Source: Bacteroidota bacterium
GTDB lineage: Bacteria > Bacteroidota > Bacteroidia > Bacteroidales > B18-G4
Assembly: GCA_018831055.1 (NCBI GenBank)
Contig: JAHJRE010000171.1
Span: 1-40,454 of the forward strand
Length of the DNA: 40,454 bases
Reading direction: 5' to 3'
Shown piece after piece: positions 14,550 through 40,454 of the stretch. Positions within the stretch are counted from its first letter, which is position 1; every line of letters begins with the position of its first letter. The position numbers were made by a program, and so were the translations under genes. The notes beneath the pieces were generated by a model that was not told the DNA's origin, ran no database searches, and was given only the letters and a program-made list of their open reading frames with translations.

Positions 14550-14554
14550 AAGTG

Positions 14555-22269: not shown

Positions 22270-22285
22270 GGCTTTTTCACTTTTT

Positions 22286-22474: not shown

Positions 22475-22569
22475 TTCTGGTTCGATTTTTTGTTAATCCT
22501 TTGTTGAGAAACGTCAATGAACGTGAAATTGTTGCTCAATTTACAACATAATTAGACTAAAGTCAATAG

Positions 22570-23439: not shown

Positions 23440-23458
23440 GGTATTTCGTTTTTGTCGG

Positions 23459-25837
23459 TTAAAATCTGAAATTAAATGTCAATGAGGGGATGATCCCGAA
23501 GAGATATACATTCTCCACATAGGTATCGTATGCCTTGGTGGGATCGGACTGGTCGGGATCTTCCTGCGCAAAATTCAGCGACCACATATTATGCCTGTTG
23601 TAAACATTGTAGATGGAGAGATTCCAGTCGTACTGGAAACGCTGCCCTTTGTCTTTTCCCCTGAAAGTGACGGATACGTCCATTCTGTGATAGGGCTTAT
23701 ACCTGAAATCATTACGATCGGAATAAACTGGAATGACATTACCTTCTATCACTGCCCTGCCTGTCGGGATAGTGAGCGGCCGGCCCGTTTGATAGATCCA
23801 GTTGGCAGCAACGCTGAGGCGTTTGGTGATATCGTAGTTCCATACTATGGAAATATCGTTGGGCTTATCATAGGGTGCGCTGTATTTTTCCCCACGATTG
23901 ATTTCCTTAATTTCTCTGAAAGCACGGGAGTAGGTATAGCTTACCCAGCCGTTCATATATCCTTTTCCTACCTGCATTTCCAGGAGTTTTACCATGAGTT
24001 CCACTCCGTACGACCAGGATTTTCCGAACCTGAGTTCTCCTTCTATTTCCTTGTTTAGCAGGAGGCTGGCGTGATCCTTGAAATCAATGGTATTTTGCAT
24101 GTTTTTATAATAAACTTCCAGGGATGTTTCCAGAGCATTCTGCATAAAATTCCTGAAATAGCCTACCGCTACCTGGTCGGCGATCTGGGGTTTTACATTT
24201 GGACTTGCCGGGAACCATATGTCGAGCGGTGTGCCTGCCGTTGAGTTCTGGGCCAGCTGAATATACTGGTATGTCCTGGCATAGCTTGATTTAAAGGATG
24301 ATGTTTCCGTTAGTACATAGTTTAATCCAAGGCGGGGTTCCCATCCTGTATAGGTATTATAGAAATCGAGGTCTTTCATCGACTCTTCATGGTCGTAGTC
24401 GTAATTTTCATCGAAATAATATACTGTCGTTGGTCCTATATTGTTGAACATGGAAAAGCGCAGCCCATACCTTGCCGTCAGCCTGGCTCCGATCTTCTGT
24501 TCGTTGCTGATGTATACCGCGCTTTCCAGCGCCCTGGCTTTGGGCTGGTTATATTCGGTGAAGAGGCTCTCGCTTCCTGTTCCTTTGGCTTTACCCGGAT
24601 CAAAGAAATGATGGATAACGCTGGCACCTACTTTAAGGGTGTTGTTGGCGTTAAGATAATAGGTGAAGTCGGCCTTTAATCCTACATCCTCCAACTCGCT
24701 TGTCCATTCAAAGGAGTTGGGTGTGTCTTCCTCTGCTGTTCCGAGTAAATACTGGTAATTGCTGTAAATGAATGAAAAGTTGCTGAACGTTCTTTTCGAA
24801 AATAAATGATTCCATCGTATGGTCCCGGTCTGGTTTCCCAAAATCATTTTGGCAAAATCATTCTTAAAAACGTCTCTTCCGAAATATCCGGATGCGAAGA
24901 TCCTGTTGTTTTCGTCGATCACATGGTTGATCTTCGCGTTGAAGTCGTAAAAATAAAGCTTGTTATCACGTATATCTTTATTATTTGAAAAAGGCAGGAA
25001 AAGGTCAGCATAGGTCCTTCGCCCTGAGGCGATAAACGATGTCTTTTCCTTAATGATCGGGCCTTCCACGGTGAGACGGGAAGATATGAGCCCGATGCCT
25101 CCGGTTACCCCGAATTTTTTGGTGTTGCCGTCTTTCATTCTTACATCCAGGACAGAAGCCAGCCTCCCTCCGAATTGAGCCGGAATATCCCCTTTGTATA
25201 GCATTACGTCTTTTACAGCATCGTTATTGAAAACCGAGAAGAATCCCAGCAGATGGCCGGCGTTGTAGACGGTTGCTTCGTCGAGCAGTACAAGGTTCTG
25301 GTCCGGACTGCCTCCCCGGACGCTGAACCCCGTGCTACCCTCAGAAGTGAATTGTACTCCTGGCAACAACTGAATGGCCCTGATAACATCCACCTCACCG
25401 AAGAGTGAAGGTATCTCACGTATGGTCCGGGCTTCAATCTTTGCAACGCTCATTTCCGGTTTTTGCAGGATCTCACCCTTTTTTTCGGCTATGATCCTTA
25501 CTTCTTCAAGTTGTGTTTTTACCTGCTCGAGCTCAATATCTATTCTAATATCCTCCTTGAGCTCTAGGGCCCGTGACAACGGTTCGTAACCGATATAGGA
25601 ATAGGAAATATGATAATTCCCTTTGGGCAGACTAATTGAATAAAATCCGTACACATTGGTAACCGTTCCGGTACCAAGTTCCTTTATATAAATGGTTGCG
25701 CCGATGAGATCCTCTCCACTACGGGCATCTTTTATATGCCCGCTTATGGTTTTATTATCGCGGGAGACATCATCACCGGCAAGGGCCGTGAAAAACAGAA
25801 TCTGGGATAAGAAAATAAATAAAACAAATCTTTTCAT
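23459..25837 (-). CDS. TonB-dependent receptor with carboxypeptidase-like domain
   Basis: The 792-aa outer-membrane receptor has a signal peptide (about residues 1-20), then a carboxypeptidase-like regulatory domain (ISGHIKDARSGEDLIGATIY, about residues 31-50). The plug follows (DVIRAIQLLPGVQFTSEG, VRGGSPDQNLVLLDEATVY, GGRLASVLDVRMKDG), and then a long beta-barrel ending in LTFNFRF, a typical C-terminal Phe. It imports a ligand too large for porins using TonB energy. The DUF4249 lipoprotein follows by 19 bp. It lacks the SusD partner of glycan systems, so a non-glycan ligand (metal chelate, peptide) is possible. Confidence 0.93.
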   Translation of the reverse strand: MKRFVLFIFLSQILFFTALAGDDVSRDNKTISGHIKDARSGEDLIGATIYIKELGTGTVTNVYGFYSISLPKGNYHISYSYIGYEPLSRALELKEDIRIDIELEQVKTQLEEVRIIAEKKGEILQKPEMSVAKIEARTIREIPSLFGEVDVIRAIQLLPGVQFTSEGSTGFSVRGGSPDQNLVLLDEATVYNAGHLLGFFSVFNNDAVKDVMLYKGDIPAQFGGRLASVLDVRMKDGNTKKFGVTGGIGLISSRLTVEGPIIKEKTSFIASGRRTYADLFLPFSNNKDIRDNKLYFYDFNAKINHVIDENNRIFASGYFGRDVFKNDFAKMILGNQTGTIRWNHLFSKRTFSNFSFIYSNYQYLLGTAEEDTPNSFEWTSELEDVGLKADFTYYLNANNTLKVGASVIHHFFDPGKAKGTGSESLFTEYNQPKARALESAVYISNEQKIGARLTARYGLRFSMFNNIGPTTVYYFDENYDYDHEESMKDLDFYNTYTGWEPRLGLNYVLTETSSFKSSYARTYQYIQLAQNSTAGTPLDIWFPASPNVKPQIADQVAVGYFRNFMQNALETSLEVYYKNMQNTIDFKDHASLLLNKEIEGELRFGKSWSYGVELMVKLLEMQVGKGYMNGWVSYTYSRAFREIKEINRGEKYSAPYDKPNDISIVWNYDITKRLSVAANWIYQTGRPLTIPTGRAVIEGNVIPVYSDRNDFRYKPYHRMDVSVTFRGKDKGQRFQYDWNLSIYNVYNRHNMWSLNFAQEDPDQSDPTKAYDTYVENVYLFGIIPSLTFNFRF

Positions 25838-25962
25838 GGTTATAAGATTTTTTAAATAACGGGTTAATAATCTATAAACAATTTTCCGGGTAATCGTTCA
25901 TAAGAAGAACGGGGTGAGAAGTAATTTTCCTGAAACAATCCAGGATGGTACAAACAAAATGA

Positions 25963-26682
25963 TTACTGATGGAACCAGCCGAAAACCAGGTTGATGGATC
26001 CTTCTATGCTGTTGAAATCGGATGATTCGAAGTATTTTTTCTCAACGACCTCGGTTCCCGTGTCGTAGGCATATTCTTTGTTTAGTCCGGTTACGACCCT
26101 GTATCCAACGGTGGCATTGATCTTCATCCATTTGGTCAGATTCAGCTCGGCGCCAACTTCGGGGATCATCACAAAGATCCTGTCATACACCGCATCCGTA
26201 TTTTTGTTGTTGTTATGGTAATCGTTGGTGAGGGCAACCGAGCCCCATCCGAGCTTGGCCCCGGTCATGATGTGGAAAACGTGATGAGAGCTGAAGACAT
26301 ATCCCGTCCAGAATCCTCCATGCCCCATGAGCATCCTGTAATCATCAATGGTTTCGTTATAAACCACTTTACCGTCGATGATGACTGCTTCAGGAAGTTT
26401 CCTTGTAAGAGGTCCGTACTCATGCCGGGTAGCCACACCCTGCCCGTAACCTCCGAAAAAGAATCCCTGGTTAAAGATCAAAGCAGCCCCGCCTCCGCTG
26501 GAAACGGCGAAATCACCGTGCAATGCTGAAAATTGCGTGAAAACGGCTGCAAATGCCGAGACCTTCACGTCCTTATCCTTTCCGCTGAATAAATATTTTG
26601 TTTCCGGTTCCTGGGCAAACCCGGCCAGAGAGAACAAAACAGATAAAAATGCCAATGTGTAAATACCTGCGTGCTTTTTCAT
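25963..26682 (-). CDS. Putative outer-membrane beta-barrel protein
   Basis: The 239-aa product has a signal peptide (MKKHAGIYTLAFLSVLFSLA, then GFAQE) and alternating, Gly/Tyr/Phe-rich beta strands (GGGAALIFNQGFFFGGYGQG, GHGGFWTGYVF, GAKLGWGSVAL), ending in SINLVFGWFHQ. This pattern suggests a small outer-membrane barrel. No specific family is recognised. It lies 125 bp upstream of the TonB receptor on the same strand and could belong to the same unit. Confidence 0.75.
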   Translation of the reverse strand: MKKHAGIYTLAFLSVLFSLAGFAQEPETKYLFSGKDKDVKVSAFAAVFTQFSALHGDFAVSSGGGAALIFNQGFFFGGYGQGVATRHEYGPLTRKLPEAVIIDGKVVYNETIDDYRMLMGHGGFWTGYVFSSHHVFHIMTGAKLGWGSVALTNDYHNNNKNTDAVYDRIFVMIPEVGAELNLTKWMKINATVGYRVVTGLNKEYAYDTGTEVVEKKYFESSDFNSIEGSINLVFGWFHQ

Positions 26683-26789
26683 GATGCTAAAATTAATGAT
26701 GTTTTGATTTGAGTGACAGAAAAAAGAAAGAGGGGTTGCAAAAAAGTGAAAATTTTAGTTGAATATCCGCAAAAAATGAGAAAACGGTG

Positions 26790-27017
26790 CAGGTCAAAAG
26801 TCACAAGAGGCAGGTCACAGGTTACAAGTTGCAAGTAGCAAGGATCACTCACCACCCTGCACTCTGTAACTTGTAACCTGCAACTTGTACCCAGTTCCCA
26901 GGTCCCAGTTCCCAGGTCCCAGGTTGCAAGTAGCAAGGATCACTCACCACCCTGCACTCTGTAACTTGTAACTTGCAACCTGCAACTTGTCTCCAGTTCC
27001 CAGCCCCCAGCAACCTG
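26790..27017. repeat. Second heptamer-repeat region with 50-bp direct repeat
   Basis: Units of CARGTYR occur at 26811-26845 on one strand, and the opposite form YAACYTG at 26867-26887 and again near 26962-26988. Between them are five CCCAGKT heptamers (26890-26924). A 50-bp block at 26828-26877 is repeated at 26923-26972, 95 bp apart. Sequence and 7-bp period match the array at 322-412. It fills most of the 381-bp gap between the barrel gene and the rhomboid gene; no gene is credible. Confidence 0.85.
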
Positions 27018-27030
27018 CCTCTATTCTCAT

Positions 27031-27038
27031 TATCTTTG
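27031..27038 (+). promoter_or_regulatory. Candidate -7 box for the rhomboid protease gene
   Basis: TATCTTTG matches TAnnTTTG, 25 bp before the ATG at 27064, directly after the heptamer-repeat region. No -33 element is visible at the expected spacing. Confidence 0.35.
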
Positions 27039-27063
27039 GAATAGTTTTTGACAATCTGCAACT

Positions 27064-27729
27064 ATGGTATCCGGCATTCAGGAAAAGAAACACATTTTCA
27101 ACAGTCTGTTGATTTCCGCAGTCATCATCCTTTTGATGTGGGCGGTGAAGTTTTCGGAAATGATTTTTGACATCTCTTTTGGGTTTCTGGGTGTGTATCC
27201 TCTTTCCTGGAAAGGACTTCCGGGCATCGTGCTGGCGCCTTTCGTTCATGCCGACCTTAAACATATTTCGGCCAATTCGGTGCCTCTTTTTGTTTTAATG
27301 CTAACCCTCTTTTATTTTTATCGCAAGATCGCCTTTAAAGTTTTGATCCTTATCTGGTTATTCACCGGTTTCTGGGTGTGGATAGGGGCCAGGGAAGCGT
27401 ATCACATCGGTGCCAGCGGGATAGTATACGGACTGGCGGCTTTTCTGTTCATCAGCGGATTGATTCGCAAAAATCCCCGGCTGATGGCCATTTCAATGAT
27501 AGTGGCTTTCCTTTACGGCAGCCTTATCTGGGGTGTCTTCCCCGAGCTTTTTCCTGAAGAAAATATTTCCTGGGAATCCCATTTGCTGGGACTGGTGGCA
27601 GGTACCTTACTGGCTTTGTATTTCAGGAAAGAAGGGCCGCAGCGCAAGCAATATTCCTGGGAGCTGGAAGAAGAGGACGAGGAGGATGAGGATGATCCCC
27701 ATGCGTATTGGAAGAGAACGGTCGAGTGA
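27064..27729 (+). CDS. Rhomboid family intramembrane serine protease
   Basis: This 221-aa membrane protein has six hydrophobic helices and the rhomboid signatures: the HxxxN motif (H67 to N71 in KHISAN), the nucleophile Ser118 in GASG, and the catalytic His173 in SWESHLLGLVAG. It should cleave membrane proteins within or near the bilayer; substrates are unknown. The C-terminus has an acidic stretch (about residues 200-212, mostly Glu/Asp). It converges with the transporter gene, with only 17 bp between stop codons. Confidence 0.93.
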   Translation: MVSGIQEKKHIFNSLLISAVIILLMWAVKFSEMIFDISFGFLGVYPLSWKGLPGIVLAPFVHADLKHISANSVPLFVLMLTLFYFYRKIAFKVLILIWLFTGFWVWIGAREAYHIGASGIVYGLAAFLFISGLIRKNPRLMAISMIVAFLYGSLIWGVFPELFPEENISWESHLLGLVAGTLLALYFRKEGPQRKQYSWELEEEDEEDEDDPHAYWKRTVE

Positions 27730-27746
27730 AGAGAATCAGAGAGGGA

Positions 27747-29207
27747 TTAGGGGTTAGAGGTTGGGGATCTTCTCAATACGAATTTATCAAAAAGAAACAG
27801 CAAAACAACAGTTCCCAGCCCGATGCCGGTGAAGACCATCCAGATATTGCAAGGATGGTAGGTTGTCCAGAGATAGTTTGTCAGTTCCTGGGAATTCATC
27901 TCTAAAGCATTCGCGGCAGCGCTGAAATATTCATTTTGAGTGAATGAAGTGGATATTTCAGGTAATTCAATCCCTCTTTTTGCCACTTCTTCCTGCAGCA
28001 GGCTGATCTTATCCGACATATTGGCATACACATTTCCCGACAGTATGCCAGCCAGGAAATTTCCACCGGCAAGCGGCAGGTAATAGGTTCCCATGTACAT
28101 GGCCACTTTGTCTTTGGGCGCAATATTCCCGATATATTCCAGGATGCGCGGGGAACTGGCCATCTCACCAACGGCAAAAACCAGGATGGTGACGAAAAGA
28201 TACATGCCGTTCTGGGTCACAAACCACAAGCCTATGCCAATAGCGCTGATCAGAAAGCCGGTGATGATTGTGTTTACGGGTTTTATTCTTTTGATCATCC
28301 AGGAAATAAGTACCTGCAATATAACAATATACAGCGCATCGATATTCACCAGCAACTCCGCGTTGATTCCTGATTCTTCGTTGGCCAGGAACCCGGCCAG
28401 CCAGGGCCACACCGAGTGAATGTTCCTGTATACGACGTTGGTATCGACCCATTGGTCGATAAAAACCGGAAGGGTGAAAAATAACTGATTGTACATAGTC
28501 CAGAATCCGACGATGATGATCAGGAAAAAGATCAGCTTAAGGTCTTTCAGGGCAGTGAAAAGATTGGCGAATATGCTTCTGATGGTTTTCCCCAATGGCT
28601 CGGATACTTTATCTCTTGGTGGTTCTTTATACAGGATGAGTACCAGCGCCAGGTTAATCAATATGGCAACAGAGGAGATCATGAATGCGTATTGCCAGTC
28701 GAGCACGCGCATTTTGGCCGCTGTAACCGGACCAAGAAAAGCGCCTATGTTCACGATCATGTAAAATATACCGAATCCGACCGTGGCGGTTTCTTTGGTG
28801 GTCGTCCTTGCTATAGTGGCCGAAATCACCGGCTTAAACAGTCCTGCCCCAAGGGCAACATACAGGAAAACCAGGAACATGCCTGCATAACTCCTGGCAT
28901 AACCCATCAGGAAATAACCGCTGGCAAGGATAAGATAAGAGAGAATAAGCATGCGTTTGTACCCGAACCTGTCGGCAATGGCTCCTGTGATGGTTGGCAG
29001 AATATACAGAATGCCTACAACGGTTCCCATAAGGTACCCTTTCTGCACCTGCGTGAAGCCCAATGCTCCTTCGTCGGTGGAACCGGTCAGGTAAATGGCT
29101 AAAATAATGAAAATGCCATACCATGCCCAGCGCTCGAAAAGCTCCATGACGTTGGCAATCCAGAATGTACGGGGGAAGCGGGTTATGCCCCTTGGCTCTC
29201 TTTTCAT
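27747..29207 (-). CDS. Major facilitator (POT/peptide-like) transporter
   Basis: This is a 12-14-helix MFS protein. The first helix contains ELFERWAWYG, resembling the ExxER(F/Y) proton-coupling motif of POT peptide transporters, and the loop GAIADRFGYKRML is the MFS motif. I choose the start at 29207 (486 aa, MKREPRGITR), because an AGGA site lies about 10 bp upstream. The longer start at 29234 would lie within a TATATTTG -7 box (29239-29232). A proton-coupled oligopeptide transporter is likely, but drug or other substrates cannot be excluded. Confidence 0.85.
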   Translation of the reverse strand: MKREPRGITRFPRTFWIANVMELFERWAWYGIFIILAIYLTGSTDEGALGFTQVQKGYLMGTVVGILYILPTITGAIADRFGYKRMLILSYLILASGYFLMGYARSYAGMFLVFLYVALGAGLFKPVISATIARTTTKETATVGFGIFYMIVNIGAFLGPVTAAKMRVLDWQYAFMISSVAILINLALVLILYKEPPRDKVSEPLGKTIRSIFANLFTALKDLKLIFFLIIIVGFWTMYNQLFFTLPVFIDQWVDTNVVYRNIHSVWPWLAGFLANEESGINAELLVNIDALYIVILQVLISWMIKRIKPVNTIITGFLISAIGIGLWFVTQNGMYLFVTILVFAVGEMASSPRILEYIGNIAPKDKVAMYMGTYYLPLAGGNFLAGILSGNVYANMSDKISLLQEEVAKRGIELPEISTSFTQNEYFSAAANALEMNSQELTNYLWTTYHPCNIWMVFTGIGLGTVVLLFLFDKFVLRRSPTSNP

Positions 29208-29231
29208 AAAATGCATGTCCTGGTAAAGAGG

Positions 29232-29239
29232 CAAATATA
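29232..29239 (-). promoter_or_regulatory. Candidate -7 box for the POT-like transporter
   Basis: On the minus strand this reads TATATTTG, an exact consensus match. It ends 24 bp before the preferred start codon at 29207. No clear -33 box was found. Confidence 0.4.
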
Positions 29240-29263
29240 AGGATTGTACAGCGAAAACCCTGC

Positions 29264-29376
29264 TTTTTTCTACTGTGCTCTATTGTGACTGTGGTTCTAT
29301 TTATTTACCACAATAGGCACAACCTGTCCCGATGAAAATCGGGATTAGTTCACAATAGTTTTTTCTACTGTGCTCT
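29264..29376. repeat. Repeat cluster related to the 15573-15805 family
   Basis: The 18-bp sequence TTTTTTCTACTGTGCTCT occurs at 29264-29281 and again at 29359-29376. Between them are ACCACAATAGGCACA and CACAATAG pieces matching the 35-bp repeat family near murB. A hairpin, TCCCGAT-GAAA-ATCGGGA (29327-29344), is inserted in the middle. The second 18-bp copy supplies the last codons (Arg-Ala-Gln-stop) of the ankyrin/MBL gene. The cluster lies at the left limit of the AT-rich region. Confidence 0.8.
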
Positions 29377-30696
29377 CTCAATCCAGTAAATTATACTTAG
29401 TTGAGGAATAAATTCACCCCATTGGTCATATCCGGATAAACCTGATGATTTTCTGATTTCCTTAACTGTTTCTCCGTCCTTTAATTTTTGAAGAATAACA
29501 GTATTTGTTTTCAAAAGCATTTTATAATAGTTACCTAAATCATCATAGTTTACTTCTTTTCCATGTCCGCCAATATAAATCGTGGATTCGGGGAAAACAT
29601 TTAATATTATTTCAAGAAATTCTAAATAACCTGGCACATTTTGGAAAACAGAAGGAAAGGATTGGGAAATAAATAAATCTCCAAGATGAACAACACCAGA
29701 ATTGGGAAAATAAACCATTATGTCCTCATTAGTGTGAACACCCGGATACGGAATTATCTGTTTTTTTTCATCATCAAAATTCAAGGTGTAAATGCTATCG
29801 AATGACTTACCGTTTGAACCTTTCAGGGGCTTATTCTGTTTGGTCAAAGTTCCTTCCGTAACCAACTTTTCCAGGTTTGTATAAGAAATAATTGTGCAAT
29901 TATCCCCTCCAATACTGTTTCCGGCTATGTGATCCTGGTGTAGGTGTGTGTTGATAATGTATTGAATTTCTCCTGAATCAAGTTTGATTAAATCATTTTT
30001 AAGTATTTCTATTAATTTCTCATCGCATCCGGTATCCACGAGAAGCAGGCCATCATTGCCTCTCAATACAGCGATGTTCGATCTTTCGCAATATGGGTAC
30101 GTAATGCGATATACATTTTCAGTTAATTGTGCAATTTCAGGATCACCTGGTTGAGAGGCAAGCGCCCCATACGATTTGAGATATTTTATAACATCTTCTT
30201 TATGAAAAGCGCAGGCATAATCAAGTGGTGTATAATCAAGTATGTTCCTGGCATTAACATCAGTACCATTTTCAACAAGTGGTTCAATGCTTTGCATATC
30301 GGCAAACTGAACTGCATAGTGAAGGGGTGTGCTACCTTCATAGTTTTTGGCATTTATATTGGCTCCATTTTTTAGCAGAACTATTATTGCATCTGGATGT
30401 CCAAATGCCGCTGCAAAATGTAAAGGTGTTTCCTGAGCAATATTTTCACTATTTACATCTGCTCCTTTTTGGATAAGAAATTCGATTATTTCTACAAAAC
30501 CTGTCCTTGCTCCATAATGAATACATGAATTGTAATTGTCGTTGGTAAATTCCAATAAGTTGGGGTTATTTTCAACCAGGCTTTTTACTTTAAGCAGATC
30601 TCCATGTAGTATTACATCGTGTATTGATTGTGAATGTAAGTTTGCTATTAAAAAGAAATAGATCATTAGGAAAAAGTGAGTTCTTTTTATTTTCAT
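29365..30696 (-). CDS. Exported ankyrin-repeat / metallo-beta-lactamase-fold fusion
   Basis: The 443-aa product has a signal peptide (residues 1-23), four to five ankyrin repeats (about 25-180, with units such as ETPLHFAAAFGH and STPLHYAVQFAD) and a metallo-beta-lactamase fold (about 190-443). Metal ligands are complete: H251, H253, D255, H256 in HLHQDH, then H321, D340 and H378. It should be a di-zinc hydrolase in the periplasm with ankyrin repeats as a binding module. HxHxDH and a GxH late ligand fit the general hydrolase superfamily, including subclass B-type lactamases, lactonases and glyoxalase II-like enzymes. The substrate is unknown. Its final three residues come from a dispersed repeat. 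Confidence 0.88.
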   Translation of the reverse strand: MKIKRTHFFLMIYFFLIANLHSQSIHDVILHGDLLKVKSLVENNPNLLEFTNDNYNSCIHYGARTGFVEIIEFLIQKGADVNSENIAQETPLHFAAAFGHPDAIIVLLKNGANINAKNYEGSTPLHYAVQFADMQSIEPLVENGTDVNARNILDYTPLDYACAFHKEDVIKYLKSYGALASQPGDPEIAQLTENVYRITYPYCERSNIAVLRGNDGLLLVDTGCDEKLIEILKNDLIKLDSGEIQYIINTHLHQDHIAGNSIGGDNCTIISYTNLEKLVTEGTLTKQNKPLKGSNGKSFDSIYTLNFDDEKKQIIPYPGVHTNEDIMVYFPNSGVVHLGDLFISQSFPSVFQNVPGYLEFLEIILNVFPESTIYIGGHGKEVNYDDLGNYYKMLLKTNTVILQKLKDGETVKEIRKSSGLSGYDQWGEFIPQLSIIYWIERAQ

Positions 30697-30794
30697 GATT
30701 CTTTTTTCAATTATTTTTTTTCGGTTCTAATTTTTCTATGGTTTTTGCTATGGCCTTATACATCTATCAATAGAAAAATTTCATGGATGATTGA

Positions 30795-32708
30795 CTAATA
30801 TGCCCATAACATCAGCCCGATGATCTCATAATTATAAAGAAATATTGATAGGGCTACAAGGGTTGATGACACAATGATTAGATATACTTTCTCAAGCTTA
30901 TTTTTAATCTTCGTACTCTTCCTGAAGCTACAAATCCAAAAACCGATTATTGAAAAAAGCGAAAAGAACAATGAAAAAACAAATATTGATACACTGGCAA
31001 AGCTGACTATACCAGCATTGTTATAATCACCAAACCACACAGAAAGTGAAATTAAGCAAACTAGAAGGGAGATAATTGCAGCTAAAGGAATCAGGCGAGA
31101 AAGAAATGATATTTTTTGACGTTCTTTTTTCCACAAGATTAATATCACCCTTTTGACAGGCCAATAAAAAGTAAACAAAACAAACGATAGAATTATAAAA
31201 ATGCTGAACAACAGGAATAAGCGATCAAATATAGGCTTCCAGGCAGCGTCTTTCTTGTAGAAATCCTTTCCCGAAACGGTCAACATCATTTCCCCATCCG
31301 AATTCTTGAAAAAATATAGCAACTCATAGTTTTCATTTATCCTCTTGTATGCGTTTCCTTCTACATGGATTATCGCTTTCTTTTCACTTTGAAATTCCTT
31401 ACTAAACAATGTATCGTTTTCAAAAAACAATGTTTTACCGGACAAGAAGTAATTAGGAAATCTGTCCAGGTTGATCCCAAAATTAGCTTGTGAGTAATAC
31501 CCGGTAATGTCATCAAGAACTAATCTGTTTTTTGGATATTCCAATGCCTTTTTCTGAGTACTATTCTCAAGTTGAATTAATGATACAACTTTTCTAACCA
31601 CTTTCCAGAAATAATCAGAATTCTTATTTATCAAGACAACAATACCAACTTCTAGGTCTGGATCAAAAAGAAAAATAGAATTAAAATCAGGTATTCCTCC
31701 TCCGTGACCATATAATTTATGCCCATCTATATAATAAGAACCAAACCCTGAACCATATCCTGGCTTAAATCCTTCCTTTGCCGGGATTGATGATGATGGG
31801 AATAACATCCTGATTAAAGTTGAAGAATCAATTAGTAGATTATTATTGTAAGATCCTTTGTCTAAAAGCATTTGAACAAAGCTGGCCAAATCCCACACAT
31901 TTGAGTTGAGCCCCCCTGATGGTCTCATTAAAACAGGGACAAAGTCAAGTGGATGGCCGTCATTTGTATATCCTTGCGCAAAAAGGTTATTGTTTTTATC
32001 ATTTCTTAAATAAGTTGTTGAAACAGTTCCGATTTTATCTAAAATATGCTTTTGAATATAGTCTTCAAATTTCTGGCCAGTAGTTCTTTCGATGATTAAT
32101 GCCAGTAAGGAATAGGCATCGTTTGAATAACTGCAAATTTCACCGGGTTTCCAACGAACATATCTGGATCTAGGATTAATAGAAAAAACTTCATTTAATG
32201 GCAGTTCCTGCTTGGATGTTGTATTATAGCCTTCATTAAAATGAACATCATCAATACTTGATGTATGCTCCAGGAGGTGAATGATTCGTACCGGATACTT
32301 TTTTCCCCATTTGTTGTTCATTTCAATTTCCGGCAATATATTTTGAACAGGATCATGAAGGTTTATTTTCCCTTCCTCAACCAATTGCATAATTGCTATT
32401 GCCAGAAAAGTTTTTGAGATTGATCCTAACCTGAAAATTGTTTTTTCAGAAACCTGGTCTTTGCTTATTATATCAGCATATCCATGTGTTCCAATCCATA
32501 TGCTATCTTTAGTAATAATGGCTAATGCAATTCCAGGGATATCATATTTCCTGGTTAACTCAGCTATTTCTTTGTTTATTAAGGCAGTGTCGAATTGCAA
32601 GTTCACTGGTTGATATCCTGAGGCTTTTCCAGGAAAGGATATTATCAGCAATGCAAGCAGATTGCAATATAATGCAACAATAGGAATTAGTGAAAATAGT
32701 TTTTTCAT
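30795..32708 (-). CDS. Serine beta-lactamase-like hydrolase with C-terminal membrane helices
   Basis: The 637-aa product has an N-terminal hydrophobic signal or anchor (about 1-28), then a penicillin-binding/class C beta-lactamase-type domain. Its active-site motifs are SISK (Ser96, Lys99), YSN (residues 194-196) and HGG (335-337, in place of KTG). A linker domain (about 390-490) is followed by four membrane helices (about 495-517, 538-558, 567-592 and 607-627). This serine hydrolase family includes esterases, D-amino peptidases and lactamases; the sequence does not say which. The membrane tail anchors it with the catalytic domain outside the cytoplasm. It is 98 bp downstream of the broken amidohydrolase. 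Confidence 0.9.
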   Translation of the reverse strand: MKKLFSLIPIVALYCNLLALLIISFPGKASGYQPVNLQFDTALINKEIAELTRKYDIPGIALAIITKDSIWIGTHGYADIISKDQVSEKTIFRLGSISKTFLAIAIMQLVEEGKINLHDPVQNILPEIEMNNKWGKKYPVRIIHLLEHTSSIDDVHFNEGYNTTSKQELPLNEVFSINPRSRYVRWKPGEICSYSNDAYSLLALIIERTTGQKFEDYIQKHILDKIGTVSTTYLRNDKNNNLFAQGYTNDGHPLDFVPVLMRPSGGLNSNVWDLASFVQMLLDKGSYNNNLLIDSSTLIRMLFPSSSIPAKEGFKPGYGSGFGSYYIDGHKLYGHGGGIPDFNSIFLFDPDLEVGIVVLINKNSDYFWKVVRKVVSLIQLENSTQKKALEYPKNRLVLDDITGYYSQANFGINLDRFPNYFLSGKTLFFENDTLFSKEFQSEKKAIIHVEGNAYKRINENYELLYFFKNSDGEMMLTVSGKDFYKKDAAWKPIFDRLFLLFSIFIILSFVLFTFYWPVKRVILILWKKERQKISFLSRLIPLAAIISLLVCLISLSVWFGDYNNAGIVSFASVSIFVFSLFFSLFSIIGFWICSFRKSTKIKNKLEKVYLIIVSSTLVALSIFLYNYEIIGLMLWAY

Positions 32709-32805
32709 ATCAATTAATTTTCTTTTTTGATGATTTAAGGATTCGATAAAATATTACAGTTCTGACCTAAATATATCATTACCCGTCAACAACAGATTCT
32801 TTTCA

Positions 32806-34118
32806 CTATCTAATCTGTCTTTTATCATAAACAATTTCACCATTCTTTATAATTATAGCCTGATCTTCTATGTTCATAATATTTTCAGCTGGATTACTTT
32901 TGAGTACAATAAGATTAGCCCGTTTCCCAACTTCAATAGTCCCACAGGTTTCTTCAATGCCCAATAGTTCAGCATTGGTTTTTGTACAGGCGGTAATTAC
33001 CTCGATAGGAGACATCCCAATCTCATCTACCAATAGATACATTTCATCAAAAATGGTGGGTTTATCAGTCTCTTCATTTATCAGTGAGAAGTCAGTGCCT
33101 ACTGCAATTTTAATTCCTTTTTGGTAAGCCTTTCTGGTAATTTCATAAGCTAGTTCGAGCTTCTCATTTAGTTCTGGTTTCTCGTCAGACAGTTCGCTAA
33201 CAGTTACTTCAAACAGGTACAATGTTGGGTCAAGGATTATACCTTTTTTCTGCATATTATTTAAAATGTCATCAAGTCTTTTCGAATCTAACACCTCTTT
33301 ACTCAAATCAAATGAACCTTGTGGTTGATACTGCCAATCGGTAGGATATATCAGAAATGGGGCATGCGATAAGCTATTCACCCCGGCTGAAACCAAATCC
33401 TCTGGGGTTGCAGGATAAACAAAAGCATGAGCCCAGACTTTCAGGTTTTGTTTGTTTGCTTCAGCTACTATTTTGGTTACAAGATCTGGATTCAGATAAG
33501 CATATAATTTGATACCTGTTGCACTGCAATTTTGTGCTTCAGTAACCACTTCTCCGATATCTGTATTTTCGTCAATTTGCCTTATCCAAGGTGCAGAACC
33601 CAAGGGTATTGATTCGGGAGTTGCTATTCTGGCCCGGAAATCATTTTGGATAAATTCCCTGCCAGCAAACAAACAGAATAATAAATGTCAGGAGCAAGAA
33701 GTTCCCCATTATCAATTCTGGTCTGGATATCCTTTAGGAACATAGCATCTCCGGCCATATCCCTGATTCCCATTACTCCATGTTTTAATGATTTCTGGAG
33801 TTCCTCATCAGTTATACCGCTTATATGATTATGCCCTTCAATTAGGCCAGGGATGATATAATGCCCTGATAATTCTATGATTTCACCATCTGGTAATATT
33901 TCATCGCTATCCGGACCCAAAATGGATTTTATCAATCCGTCTTCTATAATCAATGTACGATTTGGAATGGATACATTATTTTGACTTCTAATTATTACGG
34001 CATTTTTCAATATCAATGTTGGAGAGGAAAAATGGGTTATATTTTGTGCATACAGATTGGCACTTATTATAATAAAAAAGAAAACGATAGCATTTGTTAA
34101 ATTTAGTTTTGTATTCAT
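32806..34118 (-). pseudogene. Exported amidohydrolase split by a single-base frameshift
   Basis: Two frames together encode one protein: an N-terminal part 33624-34118 (164 aa) and a C-terminal part starting near 33672 and ending at 32806. The first carries a signal peptide and the metal motif EGHNH; the second has the KxxAY Lys region, WAHAFVYPAT and the GTD Asp motif. Aligned with the intact paralog at 36696-37967, the break falls in the T-run just after PDIYYS (about 33671-33674). Adding one T restores SVLFAGREFIQND, parallel to SALMGGEELIKND. The restored protein would be about 437 aa. Either a recent pseudogene or a sequencing error; I see no slippery site. Confidence 0.85.
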
Positions 34119-34187
34119 TATTTATGTTGATTTTAGTGATTAGTTTTTATTATTAAATTGCTATTATCAATCAGATACTTATATTTC

Positions 34188-36074
34188 TTATTCATAAGTA
34201 TAGGCTTGTATTGTATTATTATAGAAAGTCGGAACAATCAACATTTTTTTTGAGGGGATGTACTCGAAATCTGCACTATACTTTCCTTTGTTTTCAGTAT
34301 GCATAATCAATTTTATTGACCCTTCTTCTGAGACTTTATAAATCTTTCCTGACCATAATGAAACAAGCAATTCACCGTTATTAGCAACTTTGATCCCATC
34401 AATAAATCCTTTGGGAAACCTGGCAACTTTTGTAATATCTTTAGTGTCAAGATCAACTGCTTTAAGCCAGCTATCACCACTATTACCAAATAATAGTTTT
34501 CCCTTAAACATATAAAGAGAATTAGGGTCAAGAACTTCGTTACCTACCAGCCATTGTTCTGCTGTGCTGTCGGAAAGCTTCCATATTACATTTTTTCGTG
34601 AATCGGAAACATAAATATTCCCTTTTTCATCAATTGCAATATCATTTAAGAAAATAGAACCTGGAACGTCTATGTGCTTGATTATTTTATCATTATCCAG
34701 ATCAATTTCCGCTACCTGATTTCGCTCAGCAACATAAAGTTTGTCATTATATATTGTCATCCCTAATGGATTCTTCAAACCACCAATCCATTTTAAATCA
34801 ATAATTTCACCTTTTAGTGAAACTTTTGATATATGTTGATTTACATTTGGATTACCAACATTTAGCTGGTCGAAGTTGGAAACATAAAGCACATCTCTTT
34901 TAGGATCATACACAACAGATTCAGAGATATTAAATTGCTTTTCTGTTTCCCAGAGTTCGGTCATATTTTCATTCTTGTAAATCAAACTACCGTACTGAAA
35001 CATGAATCCCCATCCACCCATTACTTCAACCAAACCTATGAGTAATTCATTCTTACCTCTTTTTAAAGGGAGATAGACTGCATCATGCAAACCAATTATT
35101 CCTAAAAAGGAAGGATCACGTTGAGTGTACGCACTATTTCCGAAATACATTTTTTGTCCATTCAAGAATAGCATTATCGCATCACTATATCCGAATTTCA
35201 ATTCGATAAGTGAATCCTGATCGACATTAATAATGGTTTTGGCATATATTATATCTGAGGCCATCGTAATTCTGCCGTAATGATTCGCAATATTTACAAG
35301 CCCGCTTTCATCCGCTTTGATTTTCTTCCAGTTAATTTCACCCAGATTTTGCTGCGAGGGAGTCTTCTCAAAATCAACTTCCAATATTCCGAAAGGTTGA
35401 GAGATTTCCCAGTCTGAGATAAACCCAATTGGAGTGTCTTTGACAGGTGGAACATCAAAAATTACCTCATCAGTTTGGTAATAAGAAAAGTTTGAAAAAT
35501 ATGCGCTGTTATCTATTGGGCCGCTTAAACCAATGGAGCCATCACTATCTCCATGATATAGTTCAAAGATGTCAAAAGATGATGATAGGGTATCATTAAT
35601 AAATACTCTGGCCCTTGAATCTTTAATTTCTAATTTAACATGAAACCATTCGTTTTTTGGAATGATTACTGAAGCTGTATTACCCTCTCCGTTGAAGAGT
35701 TGCCATGAATCGATTCCGTTACAGCAAGGTGTATATTGCAATGCGTCAGGATAAAGTCCGGCCCGATGCGGGCGAATATAGAAATGTTCAAAATTACCCG
35801 GAGAACTTATTCTGAAATTAATTCCAGGGTAAGATCGTCCGCCATTGACAGCCATATCGACTTCTATTATTCCATTCTTGAATTTTAAATCAGAAACTAC
35901 CCCAAAACCTTTAAAGGTCTTTCGTCCAAGATAATCAAGAGTTTCACCCTGAATAATTTTAAATTGCTGCGAATTAAAATCGACATGATTTTTCTGTTGT
36001 TGTGCTTGCAAAGATACACCTGGATGCAAACCCAAAATGCAGCATATCATAATGATGTGAGTATGTAATTTCAT
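34188..36074 (-). CDS. Exported LamG-like plus beta-propeller (NHL/SMP-30-like) protein
   Basis: The 628-aa product has a signal peptide (about residues 1-24). The first ~210 residues have strand patterns of a concanavalin-like (LamG/3-keto-disaccharide hydrolase type) fold: FKNGIIEVDMAVNGG, NFRISSPGNFEHFYIRPHR and WFHVKLEIKDSRARVFIND. The C-terminal ~250 residues are a repeated beta-propeller (VYDPKRDVLYVSNFD, GMTIYNDKLYVAERNQ, DIAIDEKGNIYVSDSR, IKVANNGELLVSLW), NHL/SMP-30-like. It probably binds or processes a small molecule or glycan outside the cytoplasm; no catalytic residues can be assigned. It sits between the two amidohydrolases on the same strand. Confidence 0.8.
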   Translation of the reverse strand: MKLHTHIIMICCILGLHPGVSLQAQQQKNHVDFNSQQFKIIQGETLDYLGRKTFKGFGVVSDLKFKNGIIEVDMAVNGGRSYPGINFRISSPGNFEHFYIRPHRAGLYPDALQYTPCCNGIDSWQLFNGEGNTASVIIPKNEWFHVKLEIKDSRARVFINDTLSSSFDIFELYHGDSDGSIGLSGPIDNSAYFSNFSYYQTDEVIFDVPPVKDTPIGFISDWEISQPFGILEVDFEKTPSQQNLGEINWKKIKADESGLVNIANHYGRITMASDIIYAKTIINVDQDSLIELKFGYSDAIMLFLNGQKMYFGNSAYTQRDPSFLGIIGLHDAVYLPLKRGKNELLIGLVEVMGGWGFMFQYGSLIYKNENMTELWETEKQFNISESVVYDPKRDVLYVSNFDQLNVGNPNVNQHISKVSLKGEIIDLKWIGGLKNPLGMTIYNDKLYVAERNQVAEIDLDNDKIIKHIDVPGSIFLNDIAIDEKGNIYVSDSRKNVIWKLSDSTAEQWLVGNEVLDPNSLYMFKGKLLFGNSGDSWLKAVDLDTKDITKVARFPKGFIDGIKVANNGELLVSLWSGKIYKVSEEGSIKLIMHTENKGKYSADFEYIPSKKMLIVPTFYNNTIQAYTYE

Positions 36075-36192
36075 ATTATTAATTTTATTTATTATTGATC
36101 ATATACTTAGTAGGTTCTATTCAAATATTGACAAAAACAGTTTATTTATGCCTGCCCCATCATTGTAATAAAATTGTCTGTTAAATGGAATC

Positions 36193-36681
36193 TTAAAGAC
36201 TTATTTCGCCAATAACTTTTGGCCCCTGAATAAAGATTTTTGTGACTTCTCTTGGTAACTCTACAATGAGATACCTCTTAAATTTATCGTTTTTACCAAC
36301 TCCAATATTTATAGAAACTTCCGGATCGGTATACCAATATTCTGTGGTTGTTCCTGTACCTCTATCGATCACCTTTGTTCCAAAAGCAACTGCTGCAGTA
36401 ACCAACACCTGGCCCCTGTATTGAAACATACAATTGAACATCTTTGGGTACAATCCAAATTCTCCTTCATCATAGGATGTAATCTCTAATTTAACTTCAA
36501 ATAATTGGTTGCTACGCTTATTTGCCGATATTAAGTCTCCGCTTTCGCTGGTAAAGTTCTCAATCTTTTTGACCTCGGCTATCTGAACCTCAAACTTGCC
36601 AAAGTCAAGCAATTTTTGACTAAAAATGTGAGATGCTGATAATAAAATAGCACATACGAGTAAAGTAATTTTAGTTTTCAT
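36193..36681 (-). CDS. Exported DUF4352-like protein
   Basis: The 162-aa product has a signal peptide (MKTKITLLVCAILLSASHIF, then SQ). The mature part is all-beta: a first segment FEVQIAEVKKIEN, a middle with EVKLEITSYD and an end with LIVELPREVTKIFI. This strand order resembles immunoglobulin-like DUF4352/TQXA-type stabilising domains, but I treat the assignment as tentative. It starts 14 bp after the amidohydrolase stop, so the two are an operon and could work together. Confidence 0.7.
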   Translation of the reverse strand: MKTKITLLVCAILLSASHIFSQKLLDFGKFEVQIAEVKKIENFTSESGDLISANKRSNQLFEVKLEITSYDEGEFGLYPKMFNCMFQYRGQVLVTAAVAFGTKVIDRGTGTTTEYWYTDPEVSINIGVGKNDKFKRYLIVELPREVTKIFIQGPKVIGEISL

Positions 36682-36695
36682 TTTATTTATTTATT

Positions 36696-37967
36696 TTAGT
36701 TAATAATTAATCCATTTTTTATTACGAACTTAACTTCTTCAATATTATGAATATCATTAAGTGGGTTTTTTGTAAGTACAACAAGATTCGCAATTTTTCC
36801 TACTTCAATGGTTCCCTGTGTATTATCGATTCCCAATACTTCACAGTTGTAAATAGTAGCTGCTCTTAGAGCATCTATCGGGCTTATTCCGGTTTTTGTT
36901 ACCAGAAATTCAATTTCTTCATGAAGTGGTAGATTATCAATTTCATTCCCTGGAAAGAAGATATCTGTTCCTGCAATAATCTTTACCCCTTCATCATAAG
37001 CTGCTTTTACTATTTTATAAACAGCCGAATTTAATTCGTCCACCTTTTTTCTATCTGTGTTTGAACTAAACATTTCTCTTGATACTACAATGGTAGGATC
37101 AAGATAAATGTTGTTATTCTTCATAATATCAAATAAACTTTTATTTCTGAACGAATCAGAATAAACAGGATCCAAATTTTTAGAACCGTCTTTATAATTC
37201 CAATCAGGTGGAGATAGTAAAAAATAAACATGTGAAACAACTTCAATGCCAGCATTAATAACATCTTCAGGAGTTGCAGGATAAACTTCCCAATGCGCCC
37301 AAACTTTCATATTCTGCTTTTTTGCTTCTTCTGATAATTTAGAAACTAAAGCAGCAGACAAATAAGCATAAATCTTTATTCCGGTTGCCCCACAATTTTT
37401 GGCGTCGCTGATAATTTTAATAATATTACTTGTATCATCAACAAGTCTCATCCATGGTGCTTCGCCTATCGAATAATTTGACGATGTTGATAATCGCACC
37501 CTTGAATCATTCTTTATCAACTCCTCCCCACCCATGAGAGCTGAAAAATAAATATCAGGCCCGATAAGTTCACCTGACTTAACTGCATCCTGTAACAATT
37601 TTAAATATTCTCCATCACCTGCCATGTCCCTAAGAGCTGTTACACCGTGTTTTAATGCAATTGTTAAATTTTTTTCCGGAATAGCAGTAATATGAGTGTG
37701 CCCTTCTATAAGTCCGGGAATAATATAGCACCCTTCCAGATTAAGTAATTTGGCCCCTGTATAATTCTTATCTTCAGAATGTTGATTTATTTCTTTGATT
37801 ACTGATCCCTCAATCACGATATCAACATTGCTGCATAACTTACCCTTTTTCACATCAACGAAATTTGTGTTTTTTAATACAATCAATTCTGTTTCTTGAG
37901 CAAATGCAGGTAAGAAAATTAATAATCGTGCTATTATTAAAACAGCAATAAAAGTAGTTTTCTTCAT
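36696..37967 (-). CDS. Exported amidohydrolase (imidazolonepropionase-like)
   Basis: The 423-aa product has a signal peptide (MKKTTFIAVLIIARLLIFLP, then AFAQ) and an amidohydrolase TIM barrel. Metal ligands by family pattern: HTH (His90, His92), Lys198 in the KIYAY segment (possibly carbamylated), His225 (KVWAHWE), His246 (VVSHVYF) and Asp335 (AGTD). The C-terminal strand region (LGIDNTQGTIEVGKIANLVVL) is the typical returning beta-sandwich. It acts on an amide, lactam or similar bond outside the cytoplasm; the substrate is unknown. The split gene at 32806-34118 is a paralog. Confidence 0.9.
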   Translation of the reverse strand: MKKTTFIAVLIIARLLIFLPAFAQETELIVLKNTNFVDVKKGKLCSNVDIVIEGSVIKEINQHSEDKNYTGAKLLNLEGCYIIPGLIEGHTHITAIPEKNLTIALKHGVTALRDMAGDGEYLKLLQDAVKSGELIGPDIYFSALMGGEELIKNDSRVRLSTSSNYSIGEAPWMRLVDDTSNIIKIISDAKNCGATGIKIYAYLSAALVSKLSEEAKKQNMKVWAHWEVYPATPEDVINAGIEVVSHVYFLLSPPDWNYKDGSKNLDPVYSDSFRNKSLFDIMKNNNIYLDPTIVVSREMFSSNTDRKKVDELNSAVYKIVKAAYDEGVKIIAGTDIFFPGNEIDNLPLHEEIEFLVTKTGISPIDALRAATIYNCEVLGIDNTQGTIEVGKIANLVVLTKNPLNDIHNIEEVKFVIKNGLIIN

Positions 37968-38137
37968 TTATTATTTTCTCATTTTAGTTTTGTGGTTTTA
38001 ATTCTTTTTTACATTCAGCATTTTTTTTGGCATTCTCGATATCAGGATTTAGCTTTAAGGATTTCTAATAATGTTAAAAGCGAATTCTTTTTGTCCATTT
38101 CTCATTTAGGCTTCACCTAAACCATTCAATAAATTTC

Positions 38138-39373
38138 CTACCATATACAAATCCGTAAATTCTCAGGAATATAGTATATTGATTTAATATCTATTTTGAA
38201 GACATCATAGAATTCATTCTGATTATATATTGGACCAATTGCTCTAAATTTTTGTGGTGTATGCGACCTTGTTAAACCTAATAATGCAAATTCAGGGGTG
38301 ACTTTCTCTCTCCAAAATGCCACATATGCTAAAAAATAGTTACGAATTACATCCAGCTTTTCCTTTTCTGAATATTGTGGAAATTTATCTTTCAAAAAGA
38401 GTTGTAATGCTAATAAAGATACTTCCACTCCACCCAAGTCAGCAAAGTTCTCCTGAAGAGTAGTTTTTCCATCTACTATATAGTTCTCTTGAATTGAATA
38501 TTTGTTAAACTGATTGATTAAGGAAGTATTAATATTTTCCCAATCCTTCTTAATAAATTTTTTTCCAAGCTTATCGAACGCATGAGTCATTTCATGCGCT
38601 ATCGTTCTACCAATTGTTGCAAACACTTCAGCAGCACCATTCTCATTAGAGAAATTTGAAGCATATAAAGTACCTGCATATATTTTTACTTTATTTTCAT
38701 TATAATTATATCTACAATCTGTCTCAAAAGGAGGCGATTCCCAATAAGGCTTTTCTGTATTTATAATGGCTTGATATTCTTCTGTTAACTCAATATTTGT
38801 TTCTAAAGAATTTGTTGAGAGTTCTGGTATTTTGGGAAGATGGGATATATCCGGAGCTCCAATTTCAAATTTCATATCTTCTAAGATTGATAGGAAGAAA
38901 TCAATATTTTTCTCTTCAATATGGTTGCTATTTTCAATTTTTTGCCTGAAAGTTAAGGCCAAATATTTTATTAATTCTTTAATTTTTTCTTCTTTTTCTT
39001 TTGGTATGGTAATTTTTGAAAATATTACACCAAATATTATTGGGTAATGCTTTTGAACTAAATAAACTCTTTTTCTTTCATTGGGAATATTTTCAGCTGC
39101 ACTTTTATAAAAATTTTGTAATTGAATCAATATGTATTGATTGTTCTCATCAAGTTCGTACTGTACTTTATCAGAAAGTATTTCGATCGATTTTTCAATA
39201 ATTTCTTCCCAAAGTATCCCCCAATTGTTAACTACACAAACTTTTTCAGGAATAATTGTATTATCCAGCCATTCTTTGTTTGCATATTCATAGAAATCAA
39301 AAATTGTATCTTTCTTCTGAGCCAGAATAATATTTGAATTGAAAAAACAAGTTAAAGTAAAAATAATAATCAT
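38138..39373 (-). CDS. Short exported M13 (neprilysin-like) metallopeptidase
   Basis: I prefer the start at 39373 (411 aa), where the signal peptide MIIIFTLTCFFNSNIILAQ begins; the frame extends 18 codons upstream. The protein has the M13 N-terminal mark DFYEYANKEWL and, near residue 260, the zinc motif HEMTH (His, Glu, His). The later ENFADLGG supplies the third ligand Glu and the Asp that orients it. The NENKVKIYAGTLY and RSHTPQKFRAIGP blocks replace the usual NPxxNxIxFPAG and VDxxxRxxxPEWFRV. Typical M13 enzymes are about 650-700 aa; here the large helical N-terminal gating domain is much reduced. It is likely a free or periplasmic peptidase of the Bacteroidota short type. Confidence 0.82.
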   Translation of the reverse strand: MIIIFTLTCFFNSNIILAQKKDTIFDFYEYANKEWLDNTIIPEKVCVVNNWGILWEEIIEKSIEILSDKVQYELDENNQYILIQLQNFYKSAAENIPNERKRVYLVQKHYPIIFGVIFSKITIPKEKEEKIKELIKYLALTFRQKIENSNHIEEKNIDFFLSILEDMKFEIGAPDISHLPKIPELSTNSLETNIELTEEYQAIINTEKPYWESPPFETDCRYNYNENKVKIYAGTLYASNFSNENGAAEVFATIGRTIAHEMTHAFDKLGKKFIKKDWENINTSLINQFNKYSIQENYIVDGKTTLQENFADLGGVEVSLLALQLFLKDKFPQYSEKEKLDVIRNYFLAYVAFWREKVTPEFALLGLTRSHTPQKFRAIGPIYNQNEFYDVFKIDIKSIYYIPENLRICIW

Positions 39374-39686
39374 GTATTTTTTGTAATTATCACCAATATT
39401 CAGAAAATTGTGGTTTATAAAATTCATAATTTCAATTATTCTAGATTAATATTTAGATTTACTATCCCACATTGATTCATCCATTCTATGTGTAACTCCT
39501 AACTCACAGTATGGATCATCTTTGAGTGATTCAAATCAAATCGTTTTGACTAGTATAGTTAATTCCAGTGGCTTGTGTATATTATGATCTGACGAAGATG
39601 AATCTTTTAAGCCGTGAAATGCAATTATTGAGGATAAAGTCGATAATTGTGATCCTTGAGGCAGCATATTTGGAAATGAGTATCTA

Positions 39687-40454
39687 TTATAATTCAATAC
39701 TATTTAAAAATTCTATAACTGATGCGTTGAAAGCTTCAGGCTGCTCAAAAGGAATCAGATGACCGGAATTATATATAATCCTACGCTTTGCATCAGGGAT
39801 TCCTGACTCAATCGCCCCTGAATGTGCATGAACATCCGGGATATCAAATTCACCAACCAAAACCAAAGTAGGTACGCTGATCTCAGAGAGAAATTTTATC
39901 GCGGTTCGTTCAGCGGGTTTCATATAATTGAATTTCTCAGCATCAACATTGATCGGATTGGCTTGTAACAATTTTAAGCATGTTTCTTTTGCCTCTAAAT
40001 TTTCCGGATATATCTGATAAGGATCTTCCCTTCCAAAATATTGAATCATTTTTGGTGGACTGGCCAATAGCTTCTCCAATGAATTGACATGACCACCACG
40101 GGTCATAAAATGAGACGTATAAGAAAACCCTCCTACTATAGCACCAACTAAAACCAAGGCAGATACATTTTGGGGATATTTCAGGGTGAAATCGATGGCC
40201 AAACCACCACCGGCCGACATCCCGAACACGATAGCCTTATCTATCCTTAGCTGAACAAACAGTTGTTTTAGATCCTCAACATCTGAGAAAGGGGTAGGAG
40301 GATTAGGAGATTTACCGTAACCACGACGATCGTAGCGGACAACGCAATAACTTTTTGCAAATACGGGGAATTGTTTATCCCAAATTTCGCAGTGTATTAA
40401 TCCATCATGAATTAAGATGATGTTATCTCCCTTACCAGCAATTTCGTAATATAA
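39687..40454 (-). CDS. Alpha/beta hydrolase, 5' end cut by the window edge
   Basis: The frame is open to the end of the window and beyond, although an internal GTG at 40229 can be read as a start; the true N-terminus lies outside. Translating from 40454 gives an alpha/beta hydrolase start region (LILIHDG oxyanion-type loop, then VVRYDRRGYGKSPNPP). The nucleophile elbow GMSAGG (Ser) follows, with the acid in LVGEFDIPD and the catalytic His in NSGHLIPFEQPEAF. This fits a haloperoxidase/3-oxoadipate enol-lactonase-like hydrolase. No signal peptide can be judged because the start is missing. It ends 259 bp before the M13 gene; that gap shows no clear gene. Confidence 0.88.
   Translation of the reverse strand, partial: LYYEIAGKGDNIILIHDGLIHCEIWDKQFPVFAKSYCVVRYDRRGYGKSPNPPTPFSDVEDLKQLFVQLRIDKAIVFGMSAGGGLAIDFTLKYPQNVSALVLVGAIVGGFSYTSHFMTRGGHVNSLEKLLASPPKMIQYFGREDPYQIYPENLEAKETCLKLLQANPINVDAEKFNYMKPAERTAIKFLSEISVPTLVLVGEFDIPDVHAHSGAIESGIPDAKRRIIYNSGHLIPFEQPEAFNASVIEFLNSIEL

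Follow-up and report, generated by a model that had tools for sequence, protein, structure and literature searches.

The window, that is the whole stretch of 40,454 nucleotides that was analysed, contains a minus-strand gene that joins ankyrin repeats to a metallo-beta-lactamase (MBL) fold within one protein. The gene stands at the edge of a low-G+C island whose other genes include several for hydrolases. Features of the gene and its surroundings are given below by window coordinates, strand and basis of assignment.

29365..30696, minus strand: ankyrin-MBL fusion gene, 443 aa plus stop (ORF list, Pfam, residue check)
30628..30696, minus strand: signal-peptide-like N-terminus, residues 1-23 (by eye and by alignment with ankyrin-PD40 N-termini)
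30157..30627, minus strand: ankyrin domain, residues 24-180, a cap and four repeats (Pfam, AlphaFold2, structure comparison, motif positions)
29368..30138, minus strand: MBL-fold domain, residues 187-443, C-terminal helices included (Pfam, 26-row alignment, model, structure comparison)
29929..29946, minus strand: HLHQDH metal motif with H251, H253, D255 and H256 (alignment and residue check)
29734..29736, minus strand: metal ligand H321 (alignment and residue check)
29677..29679, minus strand: D340 at the bridging-Asp position, which is Cys in B1 lactamases (alignment and residue check)
29563..29565, minus strand: metal ligand H378 (alignment and residue check)
30795..32708, minus strand: serine beta-lactamase-like (PF00144) protein with a signal-like start and a hydrophobic C-terminus (Pfam; ends by eye)
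34188..36074, minus strand: SGL protein, just above cut-off, with a 3-keto-disaccharide hydrolase match below cut-off (Pfam)
36696..37967, minus strand: amidohydrolase with a signal-like start (Pfam, composition; start by eye)
29377..40454, no strand: part of the low-G+C island on the window contig (G+C 0.29-0.36 versus 0.41-0.51 leftward; family DNA comparison)
29264..29376, no strand: island edge, a copy of a dispersed CTATTGTG/CACAATAG hairpin element (repeat analysis, own-genome search)

The reading frame of the fusion gene begins with ATG and runs uninterrupted through 443 codons (ORF list), and the longest open run in the other five frames across 29365-30696 is 82 codons. GC3 is alike in the two halves of the gene (0.24 and 0.30). 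A Pfam scan of the fusion protein returned Ank_4 (4.5e-30), Ank (3e-27), Ank_2 (6.4e-24) and Lactamase_B (1.3e-16), all above the curated cut-offs, and AlphaFold2 modelled the full protein (27-row alignment) as two well-folded domains with a mean pLDDT of 86.8 and a pTM of 0.74. The preliminary description had reported ankyrin repeats and a complete MBL metal site in a single 443-aa protein; the ORF, the Pfam matches and all seven ligand positions agree with it.

The Lactamase_B profile covers residues 204-349 with 61.6 bits (cut-off 22.7). In the structure comparison of the full model all matches listed fell on the ankyrin half, so that the absence of other families there is no evidence, and for this reason the MBL half was folded and compared by itself. 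On its own the MBL domain reached a pLDDT of 88.2 and a pTM of 0.88, and the 50 structure matches listed for it scored Z 18.6-23.7; all 50 we take to be MBL-type, some by their titles and some by established knowledge. They include the alkylsulfatases Pisa1/SdsA1 (Z 18.6-18.9, 236-238 residues). Across the 26-row MBL alignment H251, D255, H256, H321, D340 and H378 never vary, and H253 hardly does; with Asp340 at the bridging position, these seven ligands are the set of the superfamily's two-metal hydrolases. Class B1 beta-lactamases carry a Cys ligand at position 221. Since Asp340 occupies the place of this Cys and no lactamase cut-off is reached (none of the best 25 of 32 curated profile families attains its own), the enzyme half looks like a two-metal hydrolase of the MBL superfamily, and lactamase activity, judged from the metal site, is unlikely. 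The profile of quinoprotein relay zinc metallohydrolase 2 (TIGR04559) scored 68.9 bits against a cut-off of 280, and a SoxH-like identity was rejected on profile scores and metal ligands.

Known structures help to place the enzyme half further. The best match to the MBL domain, its C-terminal helices included, is chlorothalonil dehalogenase, Chd (PDB 6uxu; Z 23.7, rmsd 3.0, 241 aligned residues), which is 17% identical to it and has no ankyrin domain. As set out in part of the published account (PMC12784990), Chd holds one catalytic Zn per monomer, with Asp116, His117, Asn216 and His257 as ligands, whereas our protein possesses the full seven-ligand set with Asp in place of Asn. Identity as a chlorothalonil dehalogenase was rejected, given that Asp340 replaces the Asn of that enzyme and that the HxH pair is present. 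The second structure match, a Burkholderia cenocepacia MBL protein (PDB 8d2z; Z 21.7, rmsd 2.8, 231 aligned residues), is also the top PDB sequence-profile match to the fusion protein (88.5 bits). It has no ankyrin part, its title names no function and the DH of its HxHxDH is unconserved, whereas the HxHxDH of our protein is complete.

Turning to the N-terminal half, the ankyrin motif recurs in four units that start at residues 57, 89, 122 and 155 behind an N-terminal cap. The best Pfam stretches place ankyrin repeats at residues 26-128, at scores that reach the cut-off, as expected of exported ankyrin-repeat proteins; PDB sequence matches extend the ankyrin part to about residue 180, and the nearest structures are DARPins and other ankyrins (Z about 26). 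Residues 1-23 are signal-like by eye, also by eye devoid of a lipobox cysteine, and align with the N-termini of other ankyrin proteins; one of these, the ankyrin-PD40 protein L019, matches our protein from the signal region through the repeats with 32% identity over 194 residues. The signal peptide of the preliminary description stands to this extent, whereas a cleavable peptide is a prediction from the sequence. Anti-phage defence was also considered: in a PADLOC run on nine proteins, the fusion protein matched two models over its ankyrin part, the NHL protein of contig C64 (see below) matched one over partial length, and the other seven matched none.

An ankyrin protein in the periplasm has a precedent in AnkB of P. 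aeruginosa, which aids the catalase KatB (as cited in PMC2830190; also PMC7567364; both sources in part). AnkB, as far as the portion of PMC2830190 consulted describes it, is a separate polypeptide encoded beside the catalase gene, whereas the ankyrin part of our protein is fused to its enzyme. Among the nine other window proteins scanned with Pfam, none pointed to a catalase gene.

Protein searches for the fusion covered 393 genomes at the level of the order, 395 of the phylum, 395 of the class and 9 of the family, the three Bacteroidota-side draws (393, 395 and 395 genomes) overlapping, and further draws comprised 299 genomes around a Ramlibacter centre and 149 around a Peptococcaceae centre. 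The large searches mostly scored the best four or five candidates per genome at thresholds of 1e-6 to 1e-22, some of the ankyrin frames from the order-level search were read further, and the genome searches are blind to an ankyrin part fused to a distant MBL. Among the matches listed in all these genome searches, none except the query gene itself spans both domains; the empty result from the 149 genomes around the Peptococcaceae centre tells little, because that search gave no positive whatever. Some alignments cross the domain boundary by tens of residues, and L013, L034 and L154, when scanned, proved to have a single domain each. When both halves were compared with the ORFs of loci L001-L037 and L009-L119, the sole loci with the two together were L001 and L074, which are copies of the query itself. 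In the own genome, the ankyrin half found no second match at E 0.001 (two matches overall, the other a partial MBL).

Mobile elements and assembled contigs gave the same picture. One place covering at least 80% of the query was found in none of the 103 matching plasmid records and in none of the 15 matching phage records. The boundary-crossing plasmid matches H1, H2 and H4 consist of frames that each resemble one half only; these three were the ones read from a set of boundary-crossing alignments to which H3 and Wolbachia phage rows extending to residue 239 also belong. One scan of assembled genome contigs yielded six weak MBL loci and no fusion, and a scan of viral contigs yielded no match. 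Judged by their listings, none of the papers returned by the literature searches was evidently concerned with ankyrin repeats fused to an MBL, nor with PD40 combined with a metallo-beta-lactamase. The union of ankyrin repeats with a periplasmic hydrolase had earlier been called unusual, and no second case was encountered in the genomes, plasmids and phages searched; the search for this domain architecture, proposed at the same time, has now been run, and a common architecture with a known function was not met among the sequences searched. Six proteins of the same order (L019, L026, L012, L017, L129 and L157) each have one half of the query, and none pairs ankyrin with MBL. By all appearances in these sequences, the ankyrin-MBL pairing is rare, and its parts are already combined in other ways within the same bacterial order.

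Such other combinations are found on both sides of the fusion. The scan took in thirteen distinct ankyrin proteins, a set selected for match quality rather than drawn at random: six carry PD40, one a PDZ and one a cytochrome c domain, and none an MBL. The PDZ protein also has a DUF3471 match below cut-off; the cytochrome c protein (L155:1165-2103, Ramlibacter-centre sample) has ankyrin repeats followed by the cytochrome c domain in one chain. Among the close MBL relatives, Pfam detected TPR C-terminal of the MBL domain in L012 and L157 and PD40 in the same position in L017 and L129, and the tail of L016, which has no Pfam match, aligns with that of the TPR-bearing L012 (39% over 375 residues). 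The position of the module differs, being N-terminal for the ankyrin part of our protein and C-terminal for TPR and PD40 in the relatives. As separate observations, L129 also contains a 923-residue frame (12735-15503) in which TPR and an M28 peptidase are combined with a domain like the serine beta-lactamases, and six genes in L128 (1885-11377), next to an MBL-PD40 gene, have signal-like starts and share a GPYLGQKPPG-like motif near the N-terminus (by eye).

A tree was built from 34 MBL domains. Its six rows with a repeat module (ankyrin, TPR or PD40, the query included) cluster near the query and need two label changes, as compared with a mean of 5.7 in shuffled labels, none of 500 shuffles being as low. 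The query groups with L009 (support 100/99), and the TPR-bearing L012 joins this pair (96/86). Of the 28 plain MBL rows, 27 are set apart by a branch with support 92/91; around the rows with modules the deepest splits have weak support (63/75), and the branch of L157 is long. For this tree L027 and L146, long branches in an earlier tree, were dropped and L157 was added; L041 and L042, close to L039/L040, are in neither MBL tree, and L047 was removed between alignments A2 and A3, part of it aligning to the MBL half. L009, the remaining plain row, is the nearest MBL relative of the query (34%) and lacks both an additional domain and an evident signal peptide, from which it follows that a repeat module is not essential in this clade. 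Because the modules differ in kind and in the end at which they are attached, several separate gains appear likelier than a single one. Of the two results, the rare pairing and a probably exported MBL clade that seems to change its repeat module, the latter is the more interesting, and it is based on six proteins.

The genomic setting of the fusion gene is that of an island. At 29.3 kb the G+C content falls from 0.47 to about 0.35 and stays low up to the contig end, and GC3 drops from 0.58 to 0.28 between the adjacent genes at the edge. Parts of window 21000-29181 align at 65-80% identity in each of eight other family genomes, whereas to the right of 29376 no DNA match is listed in these eight (at most 33 candidates were scored per genome, and by protein the fusion alone was searched among the island proteins). 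Five relatives were read at this site. In four of them (L167, L168, L170 and L171) the MFS-transporter gene comes straight after a helix-hairpin-helix gene, which in turn is preceded by an SNF-type transporter in L167 and L168, by an alanine symporter in L170 and by the end of the contig in L171. L169 differs in that a DNA methylase gene with a G+C content of 0.34 separates its MFS gene from the helix-hairpin-helix and SNF genes; this methylase (L169:7992-9272) has a nuclease-like tail and occupies the same slot as the island, a possible insertion hotspot.

In the genome of the window, the helix-hairpin-helix gene (39-51% identical to those of the relatives) and the SNF gene (75-80%) are located on another contig, C64 (L166). 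Beside them are about 10 kb of low-G+C DNA with genes for an Rce1-like protease, an S41 peptidase, an alpha/beta hydrolase, an NHL/SGL-type protein with a secretion-sorting tail and a histidine-kinase/LytTR pair. The alpha/beta hydrolase (L166:3878-5044) is 86% identical, and 89% in DNA, to the one at window 39687-40454, which is cut by the contig end. The kinase/LytTR pair (L166:7639-9389) lies at the far side of the island; L138 has a comparable pair (13339-15138) close to an ankyrin-PD40 gene. From the gene order in the relatives and from the co-occurrence of host and island genes on C64, an island with a minimum of 11.1 kb on the window contig and about 10 kb on C64, hence some 21 kb or more, with a gap between the two parts, appears to be inserted between the MFS and the helix-hairpin-helix genes; the order of C64 and the window contig is that suggested by the relatives. 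Both features by which genomic islands are recognised, a foreign composition and a defined site at which relatives lack the DNA, are found here. The island proteins that were scanned include no integrase, though a portion of the island falls in the assembly gap. At the edge, an 18-nt direct repeat (29264-29281 and 29359-29376) overlaps the last codons of the ankyrin-MBL gene. The hairpin element it belongs to is dispersed in the own genome (at E 1 a total of 41 matches, including that of the window itself), with another CTATTGTG/CACAATAG copy at window 15577-15800, and the island's other edge shows a weak 27-nt match to it; in place of exact attachment repeats, this was the only match seen between the two edges. 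Sigma-70-like sites are not enriched in 29000-40454 (58 versus 50.2 in shuffles, sd 8.3), and the Bacteroidota-type promoter pattern has one match in the whole window, at 22115, where 1.83 are expected.

Two neighbours of the fusion gene look damaged. An amidohydrolase at window 32806-34118 is divided between two frames that overlap (33624-34118 and 32806-33672) and is for that reason probably a broken gene, and the M13 peptidase gene at 38138-39427 is short, with the start of the N-terminal profile followed by the C-terminal part and the middle absent. These two cases suggest that the island may be decaying. Relatives of both the PF00144 and the SGL protein occur in one of 20 neighbourhoods of MBL or ankyrin relatives (L129, E 1e-8), and a conserved operon of the fusion gene with its neighbours was accordingly rejected.

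Ankyrin repeats are among the best-known natural and engineered protein binders. We consider it moderately probable that the gene was acquired horizontally and encodes a periplasmic metallohydrolase that docks through its ankyrin arm and acts on a small ester-, lactone- or amide-like substrate. The signal peptide would export a soluble ankyrin-MBL protein to the periplasm, where the MBL site would bind two metals, one through H251, H253 and H321, the other through D255, H256 and H378, with D340 as the bridge, and would hydrolyse such a substrate. The non-catalytic ankyrin stack would serve as a docking arm that binds an exported or envelope protein and thereby positions the enzyme, and the gene would have arrived on the low-G+C island of exported hydrolases. 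The preliminary description had proposed docking onto another exported protein, perhaps the neighbouring hydrolases. The general role fits, because close MBL relatives bear other protein-binding repeats, TPR or PD40; the neighbouring hydrolases as particular partners find no support, a single neighbourhood out of 20 also having relatives of the serine beta-lactamase-like and SGL genes. Among the genomes searched, none held a fusion orthologue by which conservation of the ankyrin surface could be displayed.

Could the ankyrin part instead act in cis, covering or shaping the mouth of the MBL active site and selecting or gating the substrate with no outside partner? In the model both domains are well resolved, and the short linker (about residues 180-186) and the pTM of the full protein would permit a fixed arrangement. 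The relatives, however, bear unrelated modules at the opposite end, or none, which fits interchangeable docking better, and we hold action in cis to be unlikely. Doubtful to a greater degree is a neutral or decaying fusion, in which the two halves came together recently and by chance on an island in the course of losing function, with the ankyrin part unselected. The lack of an orthologue among the genomes searched and the damage to neighbouring genes speak for it, but the 443 codons are open, the seven ligands are intact and the two halves are alike in GC3. A class B beta-lactam resistance enzyme with an extra domain is highly improbable: B1 lactamases share the fold (Z 18.6-19.8; BcII and CcrA about 19-20) and the B1 subclass profile (NF033088) scores 48.9 bits, yet its cut-off is 200 bits, the protein remains far under the subclass cut-offs, and D340 stands where these enzymes have their Cys ligand. 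Finally, an assembly chimera, in which the low-G+C part or the fusion itself was misjoined, would agree with the sharp G+C step at the dispersed repeat 29264-29376, but it is rejected as the least credible of all, because both island flanks are present: C64 of the same genome has the island's other side together with the helix-hairpin-helix and SNF genes, which relatives have upstream of their MFS gene, the related hydrolase gene is on both contigs, and the two halves of the fusion meet inside a single open frame, some 0.8 kb away from the repeat.

The docking enzyme we favour may belong to something larger. Rather tentatively, a clade of exported MBL hydrolases may repeatedly gain swappable protein-binding modules, ankyrin N-terminally and TPR or PD40 C-terminally, from a pool common to the exported proteins of the order, and the pieces may travel on secreted-hydrolase islands that bring along LytTR regulators of their own; this would amount to a plug-in system of placement, with the ankyrin-MBL protein as one of its products. 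If true, a natural enzyme with an ankyrin binder outside the cytoplasm, and with relatives in which the module is swapped, would offer a testable case of how secreted bacterial enzymes gain and exchange their targeting parts.
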